From contig NZ_BCXB01000004.1 in the NCBI RefSeq assembly GCF_001894885.1, forward strand, positions 1-64,000: a DNA stretch of 64,000 nucleotides, written 5' to 3'. The stretch is from Rhodococcus marinonascens NBRC 14363. GTDB lineage: Bacteria; Actinomycetota; Actinomycetes; Mycobacteriales; Mycobacteriaceae. A model generated the notes under the pieces. The model did no database searches. It was given only the letters and a program-made list of their open reading frames with translations, and was not told the origin of the DNA. Below, in pieces: positions 46,393-54,938 of the stretch (position 1 is its first letter; every line of letters begins with the position of its first letter). Position numbers and translations under genes: made by a program.

Positions 46393-46418
46393 GGGCGACA
46401 GTGAAGACCAATCGCACG

Positions 46419-46460
46419 AAATAGGAAAGCCCCCGGCCGAAGCCGGGGGCTTTCCTATTT
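46419..46460 (+). terminator. Strong terminator after the L,D-transpeptidase gene
   Basis: A perfect 19-bp stem (46419-46437 and 46442-46460) has a CGAA tetraloop and ends with TTTCCTATTT. Its last bases touch the left attachment site of the integrated element, so in the uninterrupted chromosome it would lie between this gene and tRNA-His. Confidence 0.9.
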
Positions 46461-46483
46461 GGGGTGAGTGACGGGACTCGAAC
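46459..46483. repeat. attL core (tRNA-His 3' fragment)
   Basis: This 25-bp copy of the T-arm and acceptor end of tRNA-His is identical to 54861-54885. Sequence beyond it (from 46484) does not continue the tRNA, so it is the displaced 3' end left by integration. Confidence 0.93.
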
Positions 46484-46587
46484 TCCCGTTCCTGGGGAAA
46501 CAATGAGCTACACAGAAGAGCTCGAAACAACCTCTGAGCTGCACATAGTCGATTCGCTGACCTATCGAACACACATTTGAATACACG

Positions 46588-46625
46588 TTCATGCAACAGT
46601 GGTATTGCATGAAACGTTGCATGGA
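46588..46625. promoter_or_regulatory. Candidate integrase arm-type sites, left arm
   Basis: Three copies of TTGCATGAA or a one-base variant cluster here: inverted at 46588-46596, direct at 46605-46613, and TTGCATGGA at 46617-46625. The same word recurs just inside the right end (54798-54806). The rest of 46484-46689 shows no gene. Confidence 0.65.
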
Positions 46626-46689
46626 ACCTCTCGCACGTGCGCGGCATCTTGCCAACCAACGCGGCTGACAGAGGCAGACCGACCCGCGT

Positions 46690-48177
46690 TCACCATCCAT
46701 CCCCCTTGTCTCTTCCCCTGACGCGCATGAGGGCGTGGGGTAGGTCCCAGCATCTCGGCTTCTCTGGGATGCGTGTGCCGCCTGGGGTGGTGAGGATCTT
46801 GCCCCGGTTGGGTCGGGGGTTGTCGGGTCGCCATGAGGTGAAGTTGCCTTCGACCGCGCACATGACCTGCATGAGTGCGTCGGCGAGGTCGTCATGTCCA
46901 GCGGCTTCGGGTACCTCGATGCGGACAGCCCCGGTGGGTGTCATCTCGTACGTGAGGGCGTGGAGCTGTTTGAGTAGTTCCGCGTGTCGGGGCAGGACGA
47001 TCCTGCCCTGCTGAAGCAGGACCTTGAGTGCCCCGTATCCGCTGGTCTTGCGTCGGTTGTCGGTAGTGACCGGAGTGACGGGGGTCCATTGGCGCATGAG
47101 GTGGCATTGGTTCTCGATCCTCCGGAGGAGGACTTGAGAGGGCATCTGTCCGACACCGTTGGATTCGGAGATGAGGCGCACCAGGCCATACTCGCGGGCG
47201 ACGGCGGCAATGCGGTCGATGAAGTCGGAGTAGGGCATTCGGTGGTGGGCTTCAAGCCAGGGCAGGAAGTAGACCAGTTCGTCGAGGTGCTTGCCCCGGT
47301 TGAGTTCCTGATCGTCGAGGACGCCGAGGAGAACGAGGGCGTTGCTGTCGTTGAATCCCCAGTCGATTCCGGCGACGGCGGTCTGTCCGTGCGCCTGCTC
47401 GGGCGGGATCAGCGCGTAGTCGGCGACGGCGTTGTCGAGTTCCTCCATCGTGAAGTACGCGCCGGTCTCGTCGGTCCATTCGGCCTCGATCTCGGTCTTG
47501 AACTTGATGGGGGACCAGGTGCGCCGCCACTCGTCTATCAGTTCGTGGTCGGCGATCGGTGACGCGGTGGAGGGCCAGTGCCATGACCGGACACGCGCCG
47601 AGGGTGAGCCCAGCCCTTCGAGGTACTTGCTGCGGAAGAAATGGCTGGACGATCCCCAGGGCGTCGAGGCGAGGATTACGCGGCTTTCAGTCCGGGCCAG
47701 GATCGACGGTTCGGCCGCCTGCCACAGGTTCATGCTGATGAATGCGGCTTCGTCGACGATCAGTAGGTCGATGCTGTTGCCGCGTGCCCTTGCCTCGGAT
47801 GCGGGGATGGACTGGATGGTCGACCCGTTGGCGAAGGTCAGTAGTTGTTTCTGGTCGTCGAGTACCGAGCCGCGCAGGAGGGGACTTCGGCGGGCCATGC
47901 CTGCGCAGTCGTCGAGGACGCGTTTGGAGGAGTCTTCGCCGTTGGAGATGACGAGGACGTGGACGTTGCTCCGAATGAAGGCAGTATGCAGGGCGCACAC
48001 GGCAAGGACTCGGGACTTGCCTACCTGTCGGCCGGCACACATGACGCGGTAGCGGGCGGGGCTGCGGGCGAAGTCGGTTTGATAGTCCCAGAGTGGTTCG
48101 CCGATGACCTTCTCGGCGAAGTAGGCCGGATCGTCGATGAGCTGATCGGGGTCGATCCCGGCGAGGGTGGCGCTCAT
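46690..48177 (-). CDS. Phage terminase large subunit
   Basis: The 495-residue packaging motor has Walker A AGRQVGKS at 48-55, Walker B LLIVDE at 138-143 followed by the coupling-type STPWGSS, and a RNase H-like nuclease with GIDWGFND (D272) and HDDLADAL near the C-terminus. It should cut concatemeric DNA and pump it into the capsid. ATG 48177 overlaps the small terminase stop (ATGA). It is the last gene before attL. No portal gene is next to it, which is unusual. Confidence 0.92.
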   Translation of the reverse strand: MSATLAGIDPDQLIDDPAYFAEKVIGEPLWDYQTDFARSPARYRVMCAGRQVGKSRVLAVCALHTAFIRSNVHVLVISNGEDSSKRVLDDCAGMARRSPLLRGSVLDDQKQLLTFANGSTIQSIPASEARARGNSIDLLIVDEAAFISMNLWQAAEPSILARTESRVILASTPWGSSSHFFRSKYLEGLGSPSARVRSWHWPSTASPIADHELIDEWRRTWSPIKFKTEIEAEWTDETGAYFTMEELDNAVADYALIPPEQAHGQTAVAGIDWGFNDSNALVLLGVLDDQELNRGKHLDELVYFLPWLEAHHRMPYSDFIDRIAAVAREYGLVRLISESNGVGQMPSQVLLRRIENQCHLMRQWTPVTPVTTDNRRKTSGYGALKVLLQQGRIVLPRHAELLKQLHALTYEMTPTGAVRIEVPEAAGHDDLADALMQVMCAVEGNFTSWRPDNPRPNRGKILTTPGGTRIPEKPRCWDLPHALMRVRGRDKGDGW

Positions 48178-48671
48178 GTATCGGTGCCTTTCTCGCGGCT
48201 TTCGTTGTGCTGGGACAGCAGGGTTGCGAGGTCGACCTCGGTGGCTGCGGCGTCGCGCTGGAGCTTGGCGCGGGCAACGGGGTCCATGCCGAGGGTGGCG
48301 CGCAGGCTCGCGGCGCGTCCCTCGTAGATGGGCAACAGTTTCGCGGCGGCGGTGGCCTGCCCCCCGTCGTCGATGATGCCGTGCGTGTCGATCCACTCGT
48401 GCAACAGGTCGCACTTGGCCTCGAATCGTGCCCACGCCAACAGGGCGGGCTCGTAGGAGGGGTCGTTGAGGTAGGCGCACTGTGCGAGTGCGGTTTCCAC
48501 CCAGCGGGCGGCGATGGGGGCGATTTTGCGGTCTGAGTGTGCGCCGTGCCGTGTCGACAGTGTGTGACCCTTCTCGAAGGGTGGACGCTGCCAGGACGCT
48601 ACGGGGGCGGGGGTGTGTTCCCCTGCCCCCGTAGCGTCCTTGCGGGCACGCGCTTTCGGGCGGCCCACCAT
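48174..48671 (-). CDS. Probable phage terminase small subunit
   Basis: The product has 165 residues with a basic N-terminus (GRPKARARKD). The helical C-terminal half (YEGRAASLRATLGMDPVARAKLQRD) resembles the P27-type small terminase tail with its conserved G-M/L-x-P-x-x-R. It overlaps the large subunit gene by four bases and follows the capsid gene directly. Small terminases recognise the packaging site. The call rests on position plus this weak motif. Confidence 0.75.
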   Translation of the reverse strand: MVGRPKARARKDATGAGEHTPAPVASWQRPPFEKGHTLSTRHGAHSDRKIAPIAARWVETALAQCAYLNDPSYEPALLAWARFEAKCDLLHEWIDTHGIIDDGGQATAAAKLLPIYEGRAASLRATLGMDPVARAKLQRDAAATEVDLATLLSQHNESREKGTDT

Positions 48672-48672
48672 G

Positions 48673-49551
48673 TCAGACCAGCTTTACGCCGCGCAGGATG
48701 ACGATGCCCTGGGGGTTGACGGGGGTTGCGTCGTAGCGGCACACAACCCGGATGGCCTGCTGGTCGTAGTCGCCGAACGTTTGGTCGAGCAGTGTGACCG
48801 TGGGTGCCATGTCGCGGGCGACGGTGATCATGGACATGTCCGCGAGGACGATGGAACTCTCGTCGGTGTCGGTGCCTTCGTTGATGGGGATGCGGTTGGT
48901 GACGACCACCGGGTGCCCGAGGAGCTGGTAAGCGCCGGACTGGGTGATGTCGGGTTGCACGATGTAGCGGCCCGAGGTGTCCTTGATTTTGCGGATCGCC
49001 ACGAAGTCGCGGGAGTGCATGAACCAGCGCAGCCGGGTCGGGTCGATCTCGGCACCGAGTGCGAGACCTTCCGCGTCGTGCAGGTCGTCGAGGGTGGGGA
49101 CGCCAACGGCCGCGAGCTCCTGTGTGTCGGTGTAGTTGAGGATTCCCTTGGGCTGGGTACCGCCCGCGCCGGTTCCGGCGATGAGGGTGTCGTCGATCTT
49201 GCCCGCAACATCGGTGATCATGCGGGCCTGGATTCCGCTGATGGTTTCCGCGATGGACTGACGTGCCAACTCGTTCGAGTAGCGGTGCAACGACTTGATG
49301 GATTTGATTTTGGGATCCAGAAGCAGGACTTCACCGAAGGTGGGTTCCACCTCGTCGATGAGTTCGTTCTCACCGTGCCAGCTGGGGGAGGTGGACTCGG
49401 TGAACGTCGGAATCCTGACCGGGCCGTGCGCGTCGATGATGGTGGGGCCGGCGGCGAGGAAGACGGACGCCTTCTGCAAGGGGACGGTGATGATGTTGGT
49501 GATCTGTTCGGCGGAGAGAACGGATGCGGCGCCGGAAGTGGACAATGCCAT
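48673..49551 (-). CDS. Phage major capsid protein, HK97 fold
   Basis: The 292-residue product has the features of HK97-family major capsid proteins: an N-arm, then IPTFTESTSPSWHGENELIDEVEPTFGEVLL (E-loop/spine region), SNELARQSIAETISGIQARM, TGAGGTQPKGIL and LLGHPVVVTNRIP. It begins at ATG 49551 with GGAG upstream. It lacks the long delta domain of self-scaffolding relatives, consistent with a separate scaffold-like gene upstream. A hairpin and a possible promoter lie in the 217-bp gap before it. Confidence 0.9.
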   Translation of the reverse strand: MALSTSGAASVLSAEQITNIITVPLQKASVFLAAGPTIIDAHGPVRIPTFTESTSPSWHGENELIDEVEPTFGEVLLLDPKIKSIKSLHRYSNELARQSIAETISGIQARMITDVAGKIDDTLIAGTGAGGTQPKGILNYTDTQELAAVGVPTLDDLHDAEGLALGAEIDPTRLRWFMHSRDFVAIRKIKDTSGRYIVQPDITQSGAYQLLGHPVVVTNRIPINEGTDTDESSIVLADMSMITVARDMAPTVTLLDQTFGDYDQQAIRVVCRYDATPVNPQGIVILRGVKLV

Positions 49552-49729
49552 GATGTGCTCCTGAAACGTGATGCCAGGAATTAGGGGAGACCCGGCGGGG
49601 AAAGGCGTTGAACGCCAGTGGGTTTGGGCTGCGAGCGTCAAGCTCAAGCGGGCCGTGAGGTGCCGGACCTCGGGTGGAACGGGTGACAGTGGGGCACCGG
49701 GCCGAACCGTCACGGTGACAATACACGAC

Positions 49730-49761
49730 ACCCCCGACAGGTTGGGGTACCTGCCGGGGGT
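49730..49761 (-). terminator. Hairpin between scaffold and capsid genes
   Basis: A 12-bp stem with one mismatch (49730-49741 with 49750-49761) and an 8-nt loop lies just after the scaffold stop. No T-run follows on the minus strand, so it may attenuate or stabilise mRNA rather than terminate fully. It would help set the scaffold-to-capsid ratio. Confidence 0.5.
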
Positions 49762-49768
49762 TACGTAC

Positions 49769-50209
49769 TTAGCTTGCGCCTTGCACCAGGCTCACGAAGT
49801 CGGCCGTGCCGTCCGCGATCTGCTGTGTCGGGTCGTTCGTCGACGGCGGGCGAGGGGCTGGACCGCCGATCTCGTTGCCGGACCTGCCGATCGACTTACC
49901 GAGGTGGGGTCGTTCGCCGACGAGTGCGCGAGCGGCCTCGGCGTACTTGTCGGCGTCAGGCTTGCCGTCGTCCCCGACGAGTTCGGTGGTGTCCACGTAC
50001 CGGCCCAGGTCCTCGGGGTCCGCGAGGACACCCGTCAGGCCGTCGAGCGCGGTCTTGGTGTGGATGCTGGACAGTTCGTCGCGAAGGCCGTCACGTTCGG
50101 TCTCCGCGGACTTCGTGGACTGACGGTGCTCGGCGGCTTCGCTGCGCAGGTCGCCAATCATCTTCTGAGCCCACTCAGGCAGGGATGCAACAGTGTTGGT
50201 ATCGGTCAT
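49769..50209 (-). CDS. Probable capsid scaffold protein
   Basis: The 146-residue protein is acidic. A helical stretch, WAQKMIGDLRSEAAEHRQSTKSAETERDGLRDELSS, predicts a coiled coil, and a flexible tail rich in P, G and N follows. This is the usual make-up of phage scaffold proteins (GP20-like), and its place immediately before the capsid gene fits. ATG 50209 has GGAG upstream. The call is by architecture and context. Confidence 0.75.
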   Translation of the reverse strand: MTDTNTVASLPEWAQKMIGDLRSEAAEHRQSTKSAETERDGLRDELSSIHTKTALDGLTGVLADPEDLGRYVDTTELVGDDGKPDADKYAEAARALVGERPHLGKSIGRSGNEIGGPAPRPPSTNDPTQQIADGTADFVSLVQGAS

Positions 50210-50211
50210 GG

Positions 50212-50394
50212 TCAGTGCTCCTCGTTGTCGTTGCGGATCCTTTTGGACTTGCGGGCGAACTCGTCCAACAGGCTGGACATCAATGCCAGCTGTGTCGGGG
50301 TGAACGTTTCCGTCCGTCTACCCAGGCCCATCAGGCGGTGACGCATGCCCGTGCGGGCCAGGTCGAGGAGATCCTTCTCGGGGTTGTTCGTCAT
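50212..50394 (-). CDS. 60-residue protein of the satellite element
   Basis: The small basic protein (MTNNPEKDLLDLARTGM...) is predicted to be helical. It starts at ATG 50394 after a GGAG site and ends 2 bp before the scaffold gene. I do not recognise it. A helix-rich peptide at this place could be a regulator or a morphogenesis factor. Confidence 0.6.
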   Translation of the reverse strand: MTNNPEKDLLDLARTGMRHRLMGLGRRTETFTPTQLALMSSLLDEFARKSKRIRNDNEEH

Positions 50395-50403
50395 TGCCTT
50401 CTC

Positions 50404-51000
50404 CTATTCTTCGGTGATGCGGGGAAGTCCGAGGTGAACGGGGACGCCATAGTGGTCACGCAACCGGATTGCCAGGTTCCGGAGCATCCTGTCGGCTTGG
50501 AGTGCCGGCACACGGTCATCGGATGTGATGAATGCCCACTTCGAGTCCCCGTAGTGGGTTGTGGGCACGAATAGTTCGCGGAGCTTGACCTCTTCGACCC
50601 GCAACTCGTCTACACCGAGAACGTCCCGTTGTAGCGGCCCAGGTACTGAGAGGACCGCGCCCCGGACATCGACCCGACCCGACACGATCACCGGCCTCTG
50701 CGGGAACCGGAAGTCGGTAGCAGCACGGATATTGTGTAGGGCCGTTTGAGCGCCGATCAGGAACAGGAAGTCATCCAGCGACGGCACCACGGCGAACCCG
50801 CACAGGCACTTGGGGTTCGGTGCCCGATGGGTGGTGCCCGGCTCGTGGCAGACTGCGCGTGCTTGCGACGCAGGCCAGGACAGTGGATGCAGGAACGGGG
50901 AGAACAGTTCCTCGCTGTGGTCCGGGAACGCGAACCAGAACCGCCAAAGTCCCTGCCTGTTCACTGAGTCAGTCGGTGGGGTGCCCTCAATGCCGGTCAT
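50404..51000 (-). CDS. Unknown protein of the satellite element with a Cys/His cluster
   Basis: The protein has 198 residues. The central region has a possible metal site, CHEPGTTHRAPNPKCLCGF, of a type found in hypothetical actinobacterial and actinophage proteins. ATG 51000 overlaps the stop of the upstream ATPase gene (ATGA), so the two are coupled. No enzymatic motif is visible. Confidence 0.7.
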   Translation of the reverse strand: MTGIEGTPPTDSVNRQGLWRFWFAFPDHSEELFSPFLHPLSWPASQARAVCHEPGTTHRAPNPKCLCGFAVVPSLDDFLFLIGAQTALHNIRAATDFRFPQRPVIVSGRVDVRGAVLSVPGPLQRDVLGVDELRVEEVKLRELFVPTTHYGDSKWAFITSDDRVPALQADRMLRNLAIRLRDHYGVPVHLGLPRITEE

Positions 51001-52136
51001 CGGTTCTCTCCTGGTGTTGAAAGTGTGGAAAGTGTTGAATTGGTGGAATCGTCAGTGGTGGGAGTGTCGGTATTGAGCTGGGCATTTACCGCGCTTTCAA
51101 CACTTTCCACACTTTCCACACGTCCTACGTAGATGCCGCGACCGGACTTCTCGATGTTCCCGGCGTCATACAAGCGACCCAGCAGAGTTCCGGCGGTCTT
51201 GGAATCGATACCGAGGTGCTCCGCGACTTCGCCGGGTGTCGTCTGACTGCGACTCTCGACGAACCGCAGAATCTCGATGGACCTGTCACCCAAGGCCGTT
51301 TTCTGCTGCCTGTGTTCGACTGTTGCGGCAGCATCGGTGAGGTCCATACCGTCGAGCGACCACCGACCATCCGAGGTCGTCAGGGCGTACTCGTTCTCAG
51401 GCACGTCCCTACCTGTCACCGCGAGCACCGCATCATCGGATTTCCGCTTGCGTGCCAACACGAGAATGAAGTCAGCGGACCCGGCGATGCCCTGCGTACC
51501 GGACACCGCATCCACGAAGTCCGACGACTCAGCCTTACGGGTGTGGTGCACCACCAGCAGGCTCGAACCGGACACCGCATCCACGAGGTCTTTCAGCTTG
51601 GTTCCGATCGCGTAGTCGGCGGTGTACGAGTCCTCTCCGGCACGCTTGGGCGGTTTCACCTTCCCGAGCGTGTCCAGGATGATCAGCGGAGCCTTGGCGG
51701 AATGAAGATCCAGAAACTCGGAGATCATCGCCACCACCTCGAGCGGGCGGGCCCGGACGATCAGATGAATATCCTTCGGGATCGGAATACCCTCACCGAG
51801 GATCTGACGGAACCGGCCCTGCAAGCGTCGGTGCCCGTCCTCCAGCGCCATGTACAGCACAGGGCGGCGTGACACCGATATCTTCCCGAGTGCGAGACCA
51901 CCTGTGGCGCAAGCGAGTCCGATACCCGCCACGAACCAAGACTTACCGGCTTTCGGCGGGGCGACAATGAGACCGAAGCCTTCGGGGACGATGCCTTGCA
52001 CGCTCCACTGCAACGGCGGGAAGCTTTGCGCGTCAAGCCAAGCGCCGTCCGCCATTCCGTCGAGGACGTGCGGTTCCCGATCGGCGTACTTTTGGCTGAT
52101 CGCGATCACCTCTGCAGGTGAATTGATAACTGTCAT
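50997..52136 (-). CDS. RepA-like AAA ATPase / replicative helicase
   Basis: The 379-residue product has Walker A APPKAGKS at 59-66 and Walker B LIILDTLGK, and later VVHHTRKAE. This is the RecA-like fold of RepA/RSF1010-type hexameric helicases. A winged-helix domain follows (TPGEVAEHLGIDSKTAGTLLGRLYDAGNIEKSG). The last 45 residues are low-complexity, containing VESVESVES and STLSTLST. It probably starts or drives element replication. ATG 52136 overlaps the preceding gene stop. Confidence 0.83.
   Translation of the reverse strand: MTVINSPAEVIAISQKYADREPHVLDGMADGAWLDAQSFPPLQWSVQGIVPEGFGLIVAPPKAGKSWFVAGIGLACATGGLALGKISVSRRPVLYMALEDGHRRLQGRFRQILGEGIPIPKDIHLIVRARPLEVVAMISEFLDLHSAKAPLIILDTLGKVKPPKRAGEDSYTADYAIGTKLKDLVDAVSGSSLLVVHHTRKAESSDFVDAVSGTQGIAGSADFILVLARKRKSDDAVLAVTGRDVPENEYALTTSDGRWSLDGMDLTDAAATVEHRQQKTALGDRSIEILRFVESRSQTTPGEVAEHLGIDSKTAGTLLGRLYDAGNIEKSGRGIYVGRVESVESVESAVNAQLNTDTPTTDDSTNSTLSTLSTPGENR
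51014..51121. repeat. 9-bp repeats in inverted blocks at the end of the RepA-like gene
   Basis: Plus-strand block 51014-51049 consists of four 9-mers (GTGTTGAAA, GTGTGGAAA, GTGTTGAAT and a variant). Block 51095-51121 carries three matching 9-mers on the minus strand. The blocks are inverted and can pair over about 21 bp. They encode STLSTLST-like and VESVESVES peptides in the protein tail. Iteron-like spacing suggests a possible origin. Confidence 0.75.
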
Positions 52137-52411
52137 ACGTTGATGCCTCCGCATCTGTTGATGAGTTCCGCAAGGTGTGCGTCGCCGCCACCACGCCGCC
52201 ACAGGGACCGCACAGCACCGATGTCGTAGCCGGTGCCAGGCATGCCTATGGCTGAGACGAGATGACGGGCGGCGGCTGCGACGACATCGGCGTCTGGGGC
52301 TGGCTTCGTGTCGCTGCACGAGCAAATCCAGGGGTCACGGTGACCGCACGGGAAGGGTTCGAGCCGCTGGGAAGCGGTAGCCCGCCTGCGGAGATATTTG
52401 GTTGTGGACAT
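52133..52411 (-). CDS. 92-residue Cys-rich protein of the satellite element
   Basis: The small protein has FPCGHRDPWICSCSD in the N-terminal third, a possible zinc site. A helical C-terminal half follows (ADVVAAAARHLVSAIG...). Its stop overlaps the start of the RepA-like gene (ATGA), and it lies 4 bp after the next upstream gene. The tight packing supports expression. Function unknown. Confidence 0.6.
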   Translation of the reverse strand: MSTTKYLRRRATASQRLEPFPCGHRDPWICSCSDTKPAPDADVVAAAARHLVSAIGMPGTGYDIGAVRSLWRRGGGDAHLAELINRCGGINV

Positions 52412-52415
52412 TCGG

Positions 52416-52631
52416 TCACCCCGCCACTGCGTCGCGGGCCGCGAGGAGCGCGGTGATCATTACGGGAACGTCTTCGGCGCTGATCTCCGCATCATTGACC
52501 AGAATTAGTCGGTCGACCTCGCCGTTGTCGTGCTGGAACAGGTGCGCCGCCACCTGAACCTCGGAATGCCCGAACGTGAACTTGGGGCCGATGTTGCGGA
52601 AGAACGGCTCGGGTGCGATGCTGTGAGACAT
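52416..52631 (-). CDS. 71-residue protein of the satellite element
   Basis: The product is MSHSIAPEPFFRN... with a predicted beta-rich centre (KFTFGHSEVQVAAHLFQHDNGEVDRLILVND). ATG 52631 has a very good AAGGAG site seven bases upstream, which fixes this start over a longer open frame to 52721. I do not recognise it. Confidence 0.65.
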   Translation of the reverse strand: MSHSIAPEPFFRNIGPKFTFGHSEVQVAAHLFQHDNGEVDRLILVNDAEISAEDVPVMITALLAARDAVAG

Positions 52632-52713
52632 TGGAATCTCCTTGGTGGGTGATTTCTGCAGTGGCCCTCGGCGCCCTGATCGGTGCAAACGATCAGGGAA
52701 TACGTCGGGGGCT

Positions 52714-52920
52714 TCACTCATTTGCGCCGAAGAGCGCGAGAAACGGCAGCCTCGGGATGAGTACGCGCCGAACGAGTTTGACGCTGGGAATGGTGCCGTT
52801 CTCGATGCCTGCCGTGATGGTGCGGGGGTCGACCCTCAGCGCCTTGGCTGCTTCCGCCCGTGTGATTGTGATCGAATCTGAGTGCTGTAAGTCGCTAAGC
52901 GTGACCTGGGTGGTACTCAT
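52714..52920 (-). CDS. Excisionase-like / small DNA-binding protein
   Basis: The 68-residue protein contains a MerR/Xis-type helix-turn-helix, ITITRAEAAKALRVDPRTITAGIENGTIPSVKLVRRVLIPR. This fold is common to excisionases and small phage regulators. It starts at ATG 52920 after AGGAG, divergent from the gene at 53053, and so controls or is controlled by the shared operator region. It may both direct excision and repress early genes. Confidence 0.8.
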   Translation of the reverse strand: MSTTQVTLSDLQHSDSITITRAEAAKALRVDPRTITAGIENGTIPSVKLVRRVLIPRLPFLALFGANE

Positions 52921-52930
52921 TGCTACTCCT

Positions 52931-52959
52931 GTCGTAACCCTTTGACGGTGGGTTACGAC
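52931..52959. promoter_or_regulatory. Inverted repeat operator 1 of the satellite element
   Basis: A perfect 10-bp inverted repeat (GTCGTAACCC, 9-nt spacer, GGGTTACGAC) lies 10 bp upstream of the excisionase-like gene. It is a likely binding site for that protein or for the product of the divergent gene. Confidence 0.6.
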
Positions 52960-52970
52960 TAGCAAAGCAC

Positions 52971-53017
52971 AGGCATATTGGTACGTCAACCCGGCGTCAA
53001 AAGGTACCGATATGCCT
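52971..53017. promoter_or_regulatory. Inverted repeat operator 2 of the satellite element
   Basis: AGGCATATTGGTAC (52971-52984) is matched by GTACCGATATGCCT (53004-53017) with one mismatch over 14 bp and a 19-nt spacer. It sits centrally in the 132-bp divergent region, so occupancy could switch between the integration genes (plus) and the replication/packaging genes (minus). Confidence 0.6.
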
Positions 53018-53052
53018 AGACGCGGATAGCTACATTCAGGTACGTTGCAGGC

Positions 53053-53601
53053 ATGACGGAAGTGAAGATTCACGCAGTCGACAAAGACTTCGAAGTGATT
53101 CCAGGTCTCACGATCTGCAGGAACGCACGTGTTCAGCTCATCGACTACCGCGGATACGACGTCGACGCCATGCTCACCGTGACGGAGGCAGGGAAGCCTG
53201 AGGTTCGATCTCTGACAGTCGTGCAACGCGACGGCGGACCGCCGGTGACTGGCACCGCATTGCGCTCAATCGCGATCCAATCCGTGGTCCGCCAGTTCGT
53301 GAAGCAACAAATCGAAATCGAGCACGGCATCGAGGCGGGTGCCGAGGTCGTAGCGCTTGGCCTCCTATCGACTTCAGAGGCGCGCCAGCTGAAGAAACTT
53401 GGACCTCAGCCGGAAACGATCGAACAAGTTGCCCGCGTCTACCGCCTCGCAGAGTTCATGAGTGATGCCCCCACTAAGGCGATCGAGGATGCTTTCGAGG
53501 TGTCTCGGAGCACTGCAGGTGCCTGGATCGGGCGGGCGCGGGCCGCAGGGCTGATCGCGCCCACCCCGATCGCAGAGGAGCAATCCGATGCCACGACGTA
53601 A
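53053..53601 (+). CDS. HTH protein upstream of the integrase
   Basis: The 182-residue product has an N-terminal beta-rich part of unknown fold. The C-terminal segment, RLAEFMSDAPTKAIEDAFEVSRSTAGAWIGRARAAGLI, is a convincing helix-turn-helix. Similar proteins precede integrases in actinobacterial elements. The stop lies 14 bases inside the integrase frame. It is the best candidate for the element's repressor, by position and domain only. Confidence 0.78.
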   Translation: MTEVKIHAVDKDFEVIPGLTICRNARVQLIDYRGYDVDAMLTVTEAGKPEVRSLTVVQRDGGPPVTGTALRSIAIQSVVRQFVKQQIEIEHGIEAGAEVVALGLLSTSEARQLKKLGPQPETIEQVARVYRLAEFMSDAPTKAIEDAFEVSRSTAGAWIGRARAAGLIAPTPIAEEQSDATT

Positions 53602-54778
53602 CCGCAGAGCGGGCAAAGGATCCATCACCAGCTACACCACCAAGGCCGGCACCCGCTGGCGCTACCAACTCTGGGTGCCCGTCGATCCCGAACACCCCGA
53701 CGCCGGCCTACGTCAGATCGGCGGGGCCGGATACGCCACGGCGGCTAGCGCTGACGAAGCCCTCACCAAAGCCAAGAACGACACCACAGCAGGCCTACGC
53801 CCCAACACCACCAAGACCACCCTCGGCGACTACGCCCAAACGTGGCTCGACGGACACCGCATCGCCAAAACGACCCGCGAGCAATACCAACGACACATCA
53901 CCCTCCACATCACACCCCACCTCGGCACCATTACAATCCGAGCCATCACCGCAACCCGCATCGCCAAGTTCTACCGCGAGCTCGAGGCGGCAGGGCTGGG
54001 CACCAACACCATCCGCAAAATCCACGTCACCCTCACCCAAATCCTCGACGCCGCAGTATCCGACCGGCACATCACCACTAACAGAGCCCGCGACAAGGCA
54101 GCAAAACCCCCCACCGGGAAACAAGTTCGAGAAGACACCCACGAACTCGAAGCATGGAACGCCCAGCAGCTCTCAGCGTTCCTCTCCTGGGACCGCGACA
54201 CCTACCAAGACGAACTACACCCCCTATGGCACAGCCTCGCAGCAACAGGAATGCGCCGAGGCGAAGCCCTCGCACTGCGCTGGACCGACCTAGACCTCAA
54301 GGACGGGCGCATCACCATCCGTCGAGCACTGGACTCCTCACAGGCAGGCAAGGGGGAAGTGAAGGGCACCAAGACAGGCCGGACCCGGGTAGTGGACATC
54401 GACCCAGCAACCGTCGACGTACTCAAAGCACACCGGGCCGTGCGGGGCAGCCTGTCACTGTCGCTCGCTCGCGGGGATGCCCTCGTATTCGGCAACGACG
54501 CCGGAGAGCCGCGCAACGTGCGGTCGGTATCCAACTCCTGGGCGCACCGCGTTCGCAAGGCACAGGGCAAGCTGGGGGTCGAAATTGTGCCGACACTGAA
54601 GCTGCATGGTCTACGTCACACTCACGCAACCCTGTTGATCGGTGCGGGGGAGTCGATCAAGGTGGTGCAGGAACGTCTCGGTCACGCCTCCATTGCGGTG
54701 ACGATGGACGTGTACGCGCACGTGCTACCGGGGGCACAGAAGGGTGCGGCGGACAGGTTCGCGGCCCTGCTCGGGTAG
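53588..54778 (+). CDS. int: Tyrosine recombinase (integrase)
   Basis: The 396-residue product has an arm-binding N-terminus (about 1-70), a SAM-like core-binding domain (75-165) and a catalytic domain. The catalytic residues are R223 (ATGMRRGEAL), H340 and R343 (HGLRH), H366 (LGHAS) and Y376 (MDVYAHV). It is 83 bp from attR and should insert the element into tRNA-His. It overlaps the upstream HTH gene by 14 bases. Candidate arm sites lie at both ends of the element. Confidence 0.96.
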   Translation: MPRRNRRAGKGSITSYTTKAGTRWRYQLWVPVDPEHPDAGLRQIGGAGYATAASADEALTKAKNDTTAGLRPNTTKTTLGDYAQTWLDGHRIAKTTREQYQRHITLHITPHLGTITIRAITATRIAKFYRELEAAGLGTNTIRKIHVTLTQILDAAVSDRHITTNRARDKAAKPPTGKQVREDTHELEAWNAQQLSAFLSWDRDTYQDELHPLWHSLAATGMRRGEALALRWTDLDLKDGRITIRRALDSSQAGKGEVKGTKTGRTRVVDIDPATVDVLKAHRAVRGSLSLSLARGDALVFGNDAGEPRNVRSVSNSWAHRVRKAQGKLGVEIVPTLKLHGLRHTHATLLIGAGESIKVVQERLGHASIAVTMDVYAHVLPGAQKGAADRFAALLG

Positions 54779-54785
54779 ATCGGTA

Positions 54786-54806
54786 TTGCATATTCTGTTG
54801 CATGAA
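54786..54806. promoter_or_regulatory. Candidate integrase arm-type sites, right arm
   Basis: TTGCATATT (54786-54794) and TTGCATGAA (54798-54806) occur directly after the integrase stop. The flanking GGTATTGCAT is shared with the left-arm cluster at 46601-46610, which links both ends to one binding protein. Confidence 0.65.
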
Positions 54807-54813
54807 GGCAAAA

Positions 54814-54859
54814 AGAAACCCCCTGTGTTGCTGGTTATCCCAGCTCACAGGGGGTTTCT
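54814..54859. terminator. Terminator between integrase and tRNA-His
   Basis: A 14-bp stem (54814-54827 with 54846-54859) with an 18-nt loop lies between the two convergent genes. It has TTTCTCTT on the plus side and a T-rich run on the minus side, so it can work in both directions. Confidence 0.85.
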
Positions 54860-54860
54860 C

Positions 54861-54885
54861 TTGGGGTGAGTGACGGGACTCGAAC
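54861..54885. repeat. attR core (3' part of intact tRNA-His)
   Basis: This 25-bp copy is identical to 46459-46483. It forms the encoded CCA, acceptor and T-arm of tRNA-His. The element therefore restores the tRNA on integration. Confidence 0.93.
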
Positions 54886-54938
54886 CCGCGACAGCCAGGA
54901 TCACAACCTGGTGCTCTACCAACTGAACTACACCCACC
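54862..54938 (-). tRNA. tRNA-His (anticodon GUG)
   Basis: On the minus strand the acceptor GTGGGTG pairs with CACTCAC, with the histidine-specific extra G at -1 opposite C73 and an encoded CCA. The anticodon stem CCAGG/CCTGG encloses TTGTGAT, giving GTG. The gene is intact although an element is integrated at its 3' end. It lies next to orn, the usual mycobacterial neighbourhood. Confidence 0.95.

Follow-up and report, generated by a model that had tools for sequence, protein, structure and literature searches.

A mobile island of Rhodococcus marinonascens with its own capsid and terminase genes and no portal match

The 64,000-nucleotide window analysed here, from contig NZ_BCXB01000004.1 of Rhodococcus marinonascens NBRC 14363, carries an 8.4 kb element between attachment (att) repeats at a tRNA-His gene. 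This element is a genuine mobile island that recurs in relatives, and its gene content is unusual for a phage satellite: it encodes a scaffold, a capsid protein and the small and large terminase subunits (TerS and TerL), and no portal or tail gene was recognised in it. It is probably an integrative phage satellite that makes its own shell and packaging motor and takes the portal, connectors and tail from a helper phage. On this reading, growth of the helper in the cell would lead the island to excise and replicate, and its scaffold and capsid protein would assemble into a small shell on the portal of the helper. The island TerS-TerL would then recognise island DNA, dock on that portal and pack, and helper connectors and tail would finish a transducing particle. 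A preliminary description of this DNA had the island replace only the shell; with its own TerS-TerL, it would instead replace the shell and the packaging motor.

The island is bounded by 25 bp repeats (46459..46483 and 54861..54885, both + strand) that are identical to each other, agree at 28 of 30 positions when compared over 30 bp and lie 8402 bp apart, start to start. The right copy falls within the 3' end of the tRNA-His gene (54862-54937, minus strand), next to the gene for a tyrosine integrase (53588..54778, + strand, 396 amino acids (aa); PF00589, 7.8e-24; phrog_1, 1e-70). The morphogenesis genes all lie on the minus strand and encode a scaffold protein (49769..50209, 146 aa; phrog_4708, 5.9e-6), a major capsid protein of the HK97 type (48673..49551, 292 aa; PF05065 (Phage_capsid), 4e-40; TIGR01554, 3e-45), a TerS-like protein (48174..48671, 165 aa) and TerL (46690..48177, 495 aa; PF03237 and PF17289; phrog_2, 7.5e-41), with domain matches to Terminase_6N (6e-10) and Terminase_6C (9e-7). 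TerS was identified mainly from the position of the gene and from relatives, in which it adjoins terL; its family match is weak (phrog_83, 0.003). Also on the minus strand are genes for a RepA-like AAA_25 ATPase (50997..52136, 379 aa; PF13481, 2.6e-20) and an excisionase-like helix-turn-helix (HTH) protein (52714..52920, 68 aa), whose matches to HTH_17 (5.5e-5) and TIGR01764 (1.3e-5) both lie under the cut-off. The start codons of the capsid, RepA-like and excisionase-like genes were picked by comparison. The inventory given in the preliminary description (att repeats, integrase, excisionase-like protein, RepA-like ATPase, scaffold, capsid and terminases within 8.4 kb) is thus confirmed at these coordinates, as are its intact frames and overlapping starts: all assigned frames are intact, and the start of terL overlaps the stop of terS by 4 bp.

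The same description had reported neither portal nor tail, and this was borne out by two Pfam portal families, a portal profile of our own and scans against family libraries. PF04860 has no match anywhere in the window's genome, matches to PF05133 are confined to another contig (C13) with none in the element, and the profile, built from 29 family members, found nothing in the element either. This profile may overlook other portal types; as a check, its portal at locus L062 is also a portal by Pfam and PHROGs, and its hit at L050 coincides with a PF05133 match. Ten of the twelve island proteins were scanned against Pfam and PHROGs, and ten of the twelve against NCBIfam. No head maturation protease or HNH endonuclease was matched in any of these libraries, no connector was matched by Pfam, PHROGs or a connector profile built here, and Pfam and PHROGs gave no match to portal, tail or lysis genes, so the island does not have the gene set of a complete prophage. 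The preliminary description also held that known capsid-forming satellites normally keep both portal and protease. Neither was found here. Absence of the protease need not be a deficit, given a short capsid protein and a separate scaffold: at 292 aa, the capsid protein appears to leave no space for a delta domain. Even among the portal-bearing relatives described below, the one scanned for a protease gave only a weak match (phrog_1522, 0.0013).

It is extremely improbable that the island hides a portal that was not recognised, and no candidate for one was found. Portals diverge strongly, and the island does contain an unassigned 198-aa protein (50404..51000, minus strand) without a Pfam, PHROGs or NCBIfam match, which is the longest unassigned frame not antisense to an assigned gene. 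However, known portals are longer than 198 aa, the only relative of the protein found is in the element of genome G017, the other three complete compact relatives having yielded none, and no compact element has any portal match.

The order scaffold-capsid-TerS-TerL recurs in at least six further elements from family genomes and viral or metagenomic contigs, so the case that no other genome has the compact set, named at the outset as one that would count against a satellite, does not hold. Four of the six (L037, L038, L039 and L040) are complete and about 8.6-9.3 kb long. They sit at tRNA-Ser genes (in two genomes), a tRNA-Val gene and a tRNA-Arg gene, each between exact att repeats of 24-36 bp, which answers whether the same order is found at tRNA genes elsewhere. 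No PF04860 or PF05133 portal lies within any of them. They are carried by G017, R. globerulus (G003, contig NZ_BCWX01000005.1), Rhodococcus sp. KRD162 (G278) and R. zopfii (G233). The other two are partial: L105, on a 4-kb metagenomic contig, and L179, on an IMG/VR contig that stops short of the integrase end and in which a DDE transposase gene separates the scaffold and capsid genes. L179 probably occupies the same insertion site as the island in the window, since it shares with it the neighbouring L,D-transpeptidase and tRNA-Lys genes.

Most other relatives of the capsid gene come with a portal. The capsid search matched 85 of 401 family genomes, and the best-scoring 40 of the 85 genomes' regions were fetched besides the window; with the four compact elements set apart, a portal was found in 31 of the 36 others, and the five without one (L072-L076) have distant capsids. 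Two of these (L072 in G365 and L073 in G210) have relatives of the scaffold and capsid and no TerL or portal match, and L072 has, by eye, HNH-like small genes. In viral contigs, where the best 80 of 183 capsid matches were kept, 71 of the 78 loci L179-L256 have 3 kb or more of sequence ahead of the capsid gene, and 70 of the 71 have a portal; the exception is L179. A scan of genome contigs with two short patterns gave at least three loci.

A decayed prophage, the alternative raised in the preliminary description, would have kept its packaging genes by chance. The missing portal and tail and the transposase gene that breaks L179 would fit such remnants, but the compact set recurs and decay is therefore very unlikely: seven elements share the same genes in the same order, five of them are bounded by exact att repeats, at tRNA genes of different kinds, their capsids form one clade, and ratios of nonsynonymous to synonymous substitution rates (dN/dS) are below 1. 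Recurrence of the gene set and its order led us to reject decay. Against the two nearest relatives, dN/dS is 0.10-0.11 for the capsid gene and 0.17-0.19 for repA. Higher values were obtained for other genes: 0.20-0.35 for terS (unsaturated pairs), 0.20-0.37 for terL of the window and 0.46-0.49 for the integrase gene.

The insertion site agrees with a mobile element. The genes that flank the island are 8.48 kb apart in the window's genome and at most 245 bp apart in 17 of 27 other genomes of the genus (at most 76 bp in 11 of those), distances that are consistent with empty sites. They are about 0.6 and 1.1 kb apart in two of the 27; in seven the L,D-transpeptidase gene is missing within the 1.5 kb compared, and one match covers the tRNA only. 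No full prophage with the genes of the island was seen at the site in these relatives, with the same seven genomes showing no L,D-transpeptidase gene to compare. The nearest relative (G014, locus L259) has none within 1.5 kb of its tRNA-His gene, and another insertion may occupy the site there. The island thus has the integrase and the att repeats at a tRNA gene that define integrative satellites in the broad sense, and the apparently empty sites and the copies at other sites point, by comparison, to mobility.

To place the capsid, a tree was built from the last 300 residues of 122 sequences, none dropped as short, with five distant sequences as outgroup. Capsids of the seven compact elements fall into a single clade (support 0.993) nested among 110 others from mostly portal-bearing loci; support at the nesting nodes is 0.40-0.90. 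The TerS-TerL pair belongs to another lineage. The TerL tree has the 47 sequences left after matches shorter than 300 residues were dropped. Within the compact family, TerL is mosaic: for the window, the ATPase half groups with G017 (1.0) and the nuclease half with G003, G278, G233 and L179 (0.92), not with G017. This TerL was found in nine of 401 family genomes, in five complete compact elements and four elements that encode a tape-measure protein; no match to our portal profile was found in the regions fetched from these nine genomes, and the four tape-measure elements with TerS-TerL also gave no match to the capsid profile built here.

The tape-measure elements with this TerS-TerL lineage are L287, the plasmid pDJL3 (NZ_CP025962.1), and L288, L289, L290 and L291 in genomes G238, G162, G170 and G245, respectively, together with L098, L099, L100, L103 and L112; the tape measure of L288 was recognised through its likeness to that of L103. 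A gene-order search matched seven of 397 genomes, including that of the window. In the seven other regions fetched from it, a tape measure was found in L098, L099 and L100, and in L097 via its near-copy L112, with no match to our capsid or portal profiles in any of the seven. The plasmid pDJL3 is a 15.9-kb circular replicon of R. qingshengii with no portal or capsid annotated. Since the portal profile may miss some portal types, absence of a portal is less secure for the tape-measure elements than for the five complete compact ones. For non-compact elements with this TerL, a quick search of their surroundings for att repeats of at least 15 bp turned up no persuasive pair. Among the viral-contig TerL matches listed, L108, a 39.9-kb contig resembling a full phage, has this TerL adjoining a phrog_533 portal. 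By the capsid tree and gene order, the scaffold and capsid appear to come from a portal-bearing lineage, and TerS-TerL from one that elsewhere accompanies a tape measure and no portal match, so that two satellite types seem to be combined in the island as a chimera. The tape-measure elements, for their part, look like satellites that bring a motor and a tail-length ruler.

A candidate helper is present in the same genome. Contig C13 contains a prophage-like region that encodes a PF05133 portal, a scaffold, a phrog_29 capsid, a decoration protein, a 1431-aa tape measure and a minor tail protein, and it possibly serves the island as a helper. The two capsids belong to unrelated families (phrog_10 in the island), but the scaffolds share one segment with 20 of 45 residues identical, which may serve in portal recruitment; this segment is widespread in such scaffolds. 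TerL of the C13 region lies in two adjacent frames (L286:8923-10591) that match phrog_19179 and phrog_21277, with lengths agreeing, and a split TerL may be the usual state in phages of this group.

The island could alternatively redirect the size of a helper's capsid, its own capsid and scaffold proteins co-assembling with or reshaping the helper shell as Ccm does in SaPIbov5. Islands with capsid homologues linked to small capsids have been published (SaPIbov5 and PmCI172, in the available part of PMC6092414). We regard a redirector as unlikely, though a more serious rival than decay. It would not be expected to need either a scaffold of its own or a full TerS-TerL pair, and the different family of the C13 capsid makes co-assembly with it unlikely, with the reservation that the actual helper may differ. 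In another alternative, capsid and terminase would poison or trap helper assembly or package host DNA, without spread of the island. Satellites often interfere with their helpers, according to the available part of PMC11389934, but the integrase, the excisionase-like gene and the island's own DNA-recognition subunit suggest self-transfer, and we give this device very little credence.

Several observations weigh against a satellite that borrows its portal. Its mechanism is well supported by anatomy, with helper, excision, particles and packaging predicted from the genes, and no close relative of the island at the DNA level was found in the phage collection. A PF05133 portal occurs elsewhere in the genome in four of the five complete compact carriers, but it is found in 11 of 28 genomes of the genus and is common anyway. 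An association with resident helpers through this portal was accordingly set aside. The carrier G003 has neither a PF04860 nor a PF05133 portal, and at least one PF05133 match, that in G018, sits in a portal-bearing relative of the island rather than in a full phage. The seven compact TerLs form one clade with a support of only 0.45, and the transposase insertion in L179 means that at least one copy may be dead. Selection is also less clear for some genes: dN/dS is 0.32-0.47 for the scaffold gene (one close pair excepted), 0.37-0.43 for the capsid gene against L040 and 0.85 for terL in the pair L037-L038, the last perhaps a result of domain swapping.

The spacer between the scaffold and capsid genes contains a structured non-coding element (49552..49768, minus strand; covariance-model core 49600-49673) upstream of the capsid gene. 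Conservation extends over about 200 bp and is seen in all seven compact copies but one. Folding of the window copy has a z-score of -3.3. In an alignment of the six copies, 95% of cells fall in standard pairs, compared with 29-50% when the sequences are slid; both partners change in five of 37 pairs, which four of 500 shuffles reach, and the covariation score was reached by none of 500. One of the five covariation measures, the count of pair types, was no better than in shuffles (235 of 500), and the controls lean towards structure, since the structure came from the alignment under test and two rows of the six hardly differ. A sequence profile of five copies (the window and L037-L040), run over all loci then collected, found only L179 (1.3e-30) besides these copies and their duplicates. 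A covariance model (R1, 77 positions), built from the window, L037-L040 and L179, gave strong matches only to its source copies in a search of 100 of 291 loci and ten whole genomes; the next best had E = 0.15 in the loci and 0.157 in the genomes, with nothing else below 0.1. The complete 179-nt spacer of L105 went unmatched, which weighs against the generality of the element. Rfam gave four weak matches, all under the gathering score and none in this spacer. The element may be a packaging signal or an mRNA leader of the capsid gene: neither the tape-measure elements searched, which share TerS-TerL, nor the portal-bearing relatives searched, which share the capsid, gave a match that would favour one of the two.

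The remaining genes of the island are small. On the minus strand are an open reading frame of 60 aa (50212..50394) with counterparts in all but one of the four complete compact relatives, a 92-aa protein (52133..52411) with relatives also in three portal-bearing loci, and a frame of 101 aa or shorter (52416..52721). On the + strand, a putative regulator of 182 aa (53053..53601; DUF6214, 0.002, under the cut-off) overlaps the start of the integrase gene. Two strong inverted repeats were noted, a terminator-like one (46409-46470) beside the left att site and a hairpin with 24-nt arms (48590-48643) near the start of terS.

More broadly, the island and its relatives could belong to an actinobacterial satellite superfamily in which a TerS-TerL motor works on foreign portals and is combined with either a shell or a tape-measure payload, the structured element being a packaging signal or packaging-coupled RNA of the shell type. 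A tape-measure payload of the pDJL3 type would reset tail length, and with either payload the portal would be left to the helper. We hold this view with rather less than even confidence. The portal of tailed phages starts the shell and carries the motor, and is usually thought to have to match both. If the island does keep shell and motor while doing without a portal of its own, a foreign portal can satisfy the contacts of both, the specificity of portal-scaffold and portal-terminase contacts becomes directly testable, and the range of what satellites borrow, from whole particles to tails only, comes to include portal plus tail.

The portal-less compact set was not found in the full-text literature searched, including the available parts of PMC10690885, PMC11389934, PMC10023795, PMC12324425 and PMC6092414, a literature whose coverage leaves out most subscription journals; within that coverage, and with the gene set of capsid-forming phage-inducible chromosomal islands (cf-PICIs) incomplete in this island, the initial impression that it matches no described satellite type stands. 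The name pDJL3 was likewise not found among the best-listed full-text matches. Like cf-PICIs, the island is an integrative satellite with its own major capsid protein, TerS and TerL and would be expected to use a helper tail. In the available part of their description, cf-PICIs also encode a protease, a portal, head-tail connectors and an HNH protein (PMC10690885), none of which was found here. SaPIbov5 and PmCI172 share with it a capsid homologue on a small island, but this homologue is tied to small capsids derived from the helper, and no complete terminase of their own is described in the part of the source available (PMC6092414). MulchRoom and MiniFlayer of Streptomyces are actinobacterial satellites that, in the sources as far as available, have their own capsid, scaffold and terminase, as the island does. 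The Mycolicibacterium aichiense phage WillG (L002, OR387121.1; 10.9 kb) has a capsid 28% identical to that of the island and, like it, no annotated portal and no match to our portal profile; it differs in having no annotated TerL (a 97-aa terminase instead) and in having an adaptor, a stopper, a tape measure and a serine integrase. The elements phiRv1 and phiRv2 of Mycobacterium tuberculosis are small, capsid-bearing and prophage-like, and stand outside this comparison. The portal-bearing relatives (L041-L071 and most of L180-L256) form a large actinobacterial group, with many viral contigs of about 10 kb, and are apparently portal-bearing capsid-forming satellites. They have a related capsid (36-57% identity) and scaffold, mostly with an integrase nearby, and L062 and L069 also a RepA related to that of the island, but their order is TerS-TerL-portal-(F14)-scaffold-capsid-connector and their terminase lineage differs. 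The plasmid pDJL3 and the chromosomal tape-measure elements share the TerS-TerL lineage of the island, with no portal annotated or matched, and pDJL3 also has an integrase and an AAA ATPase, but in place of any capsid or scaffold match they encode a large tape-measure protein.

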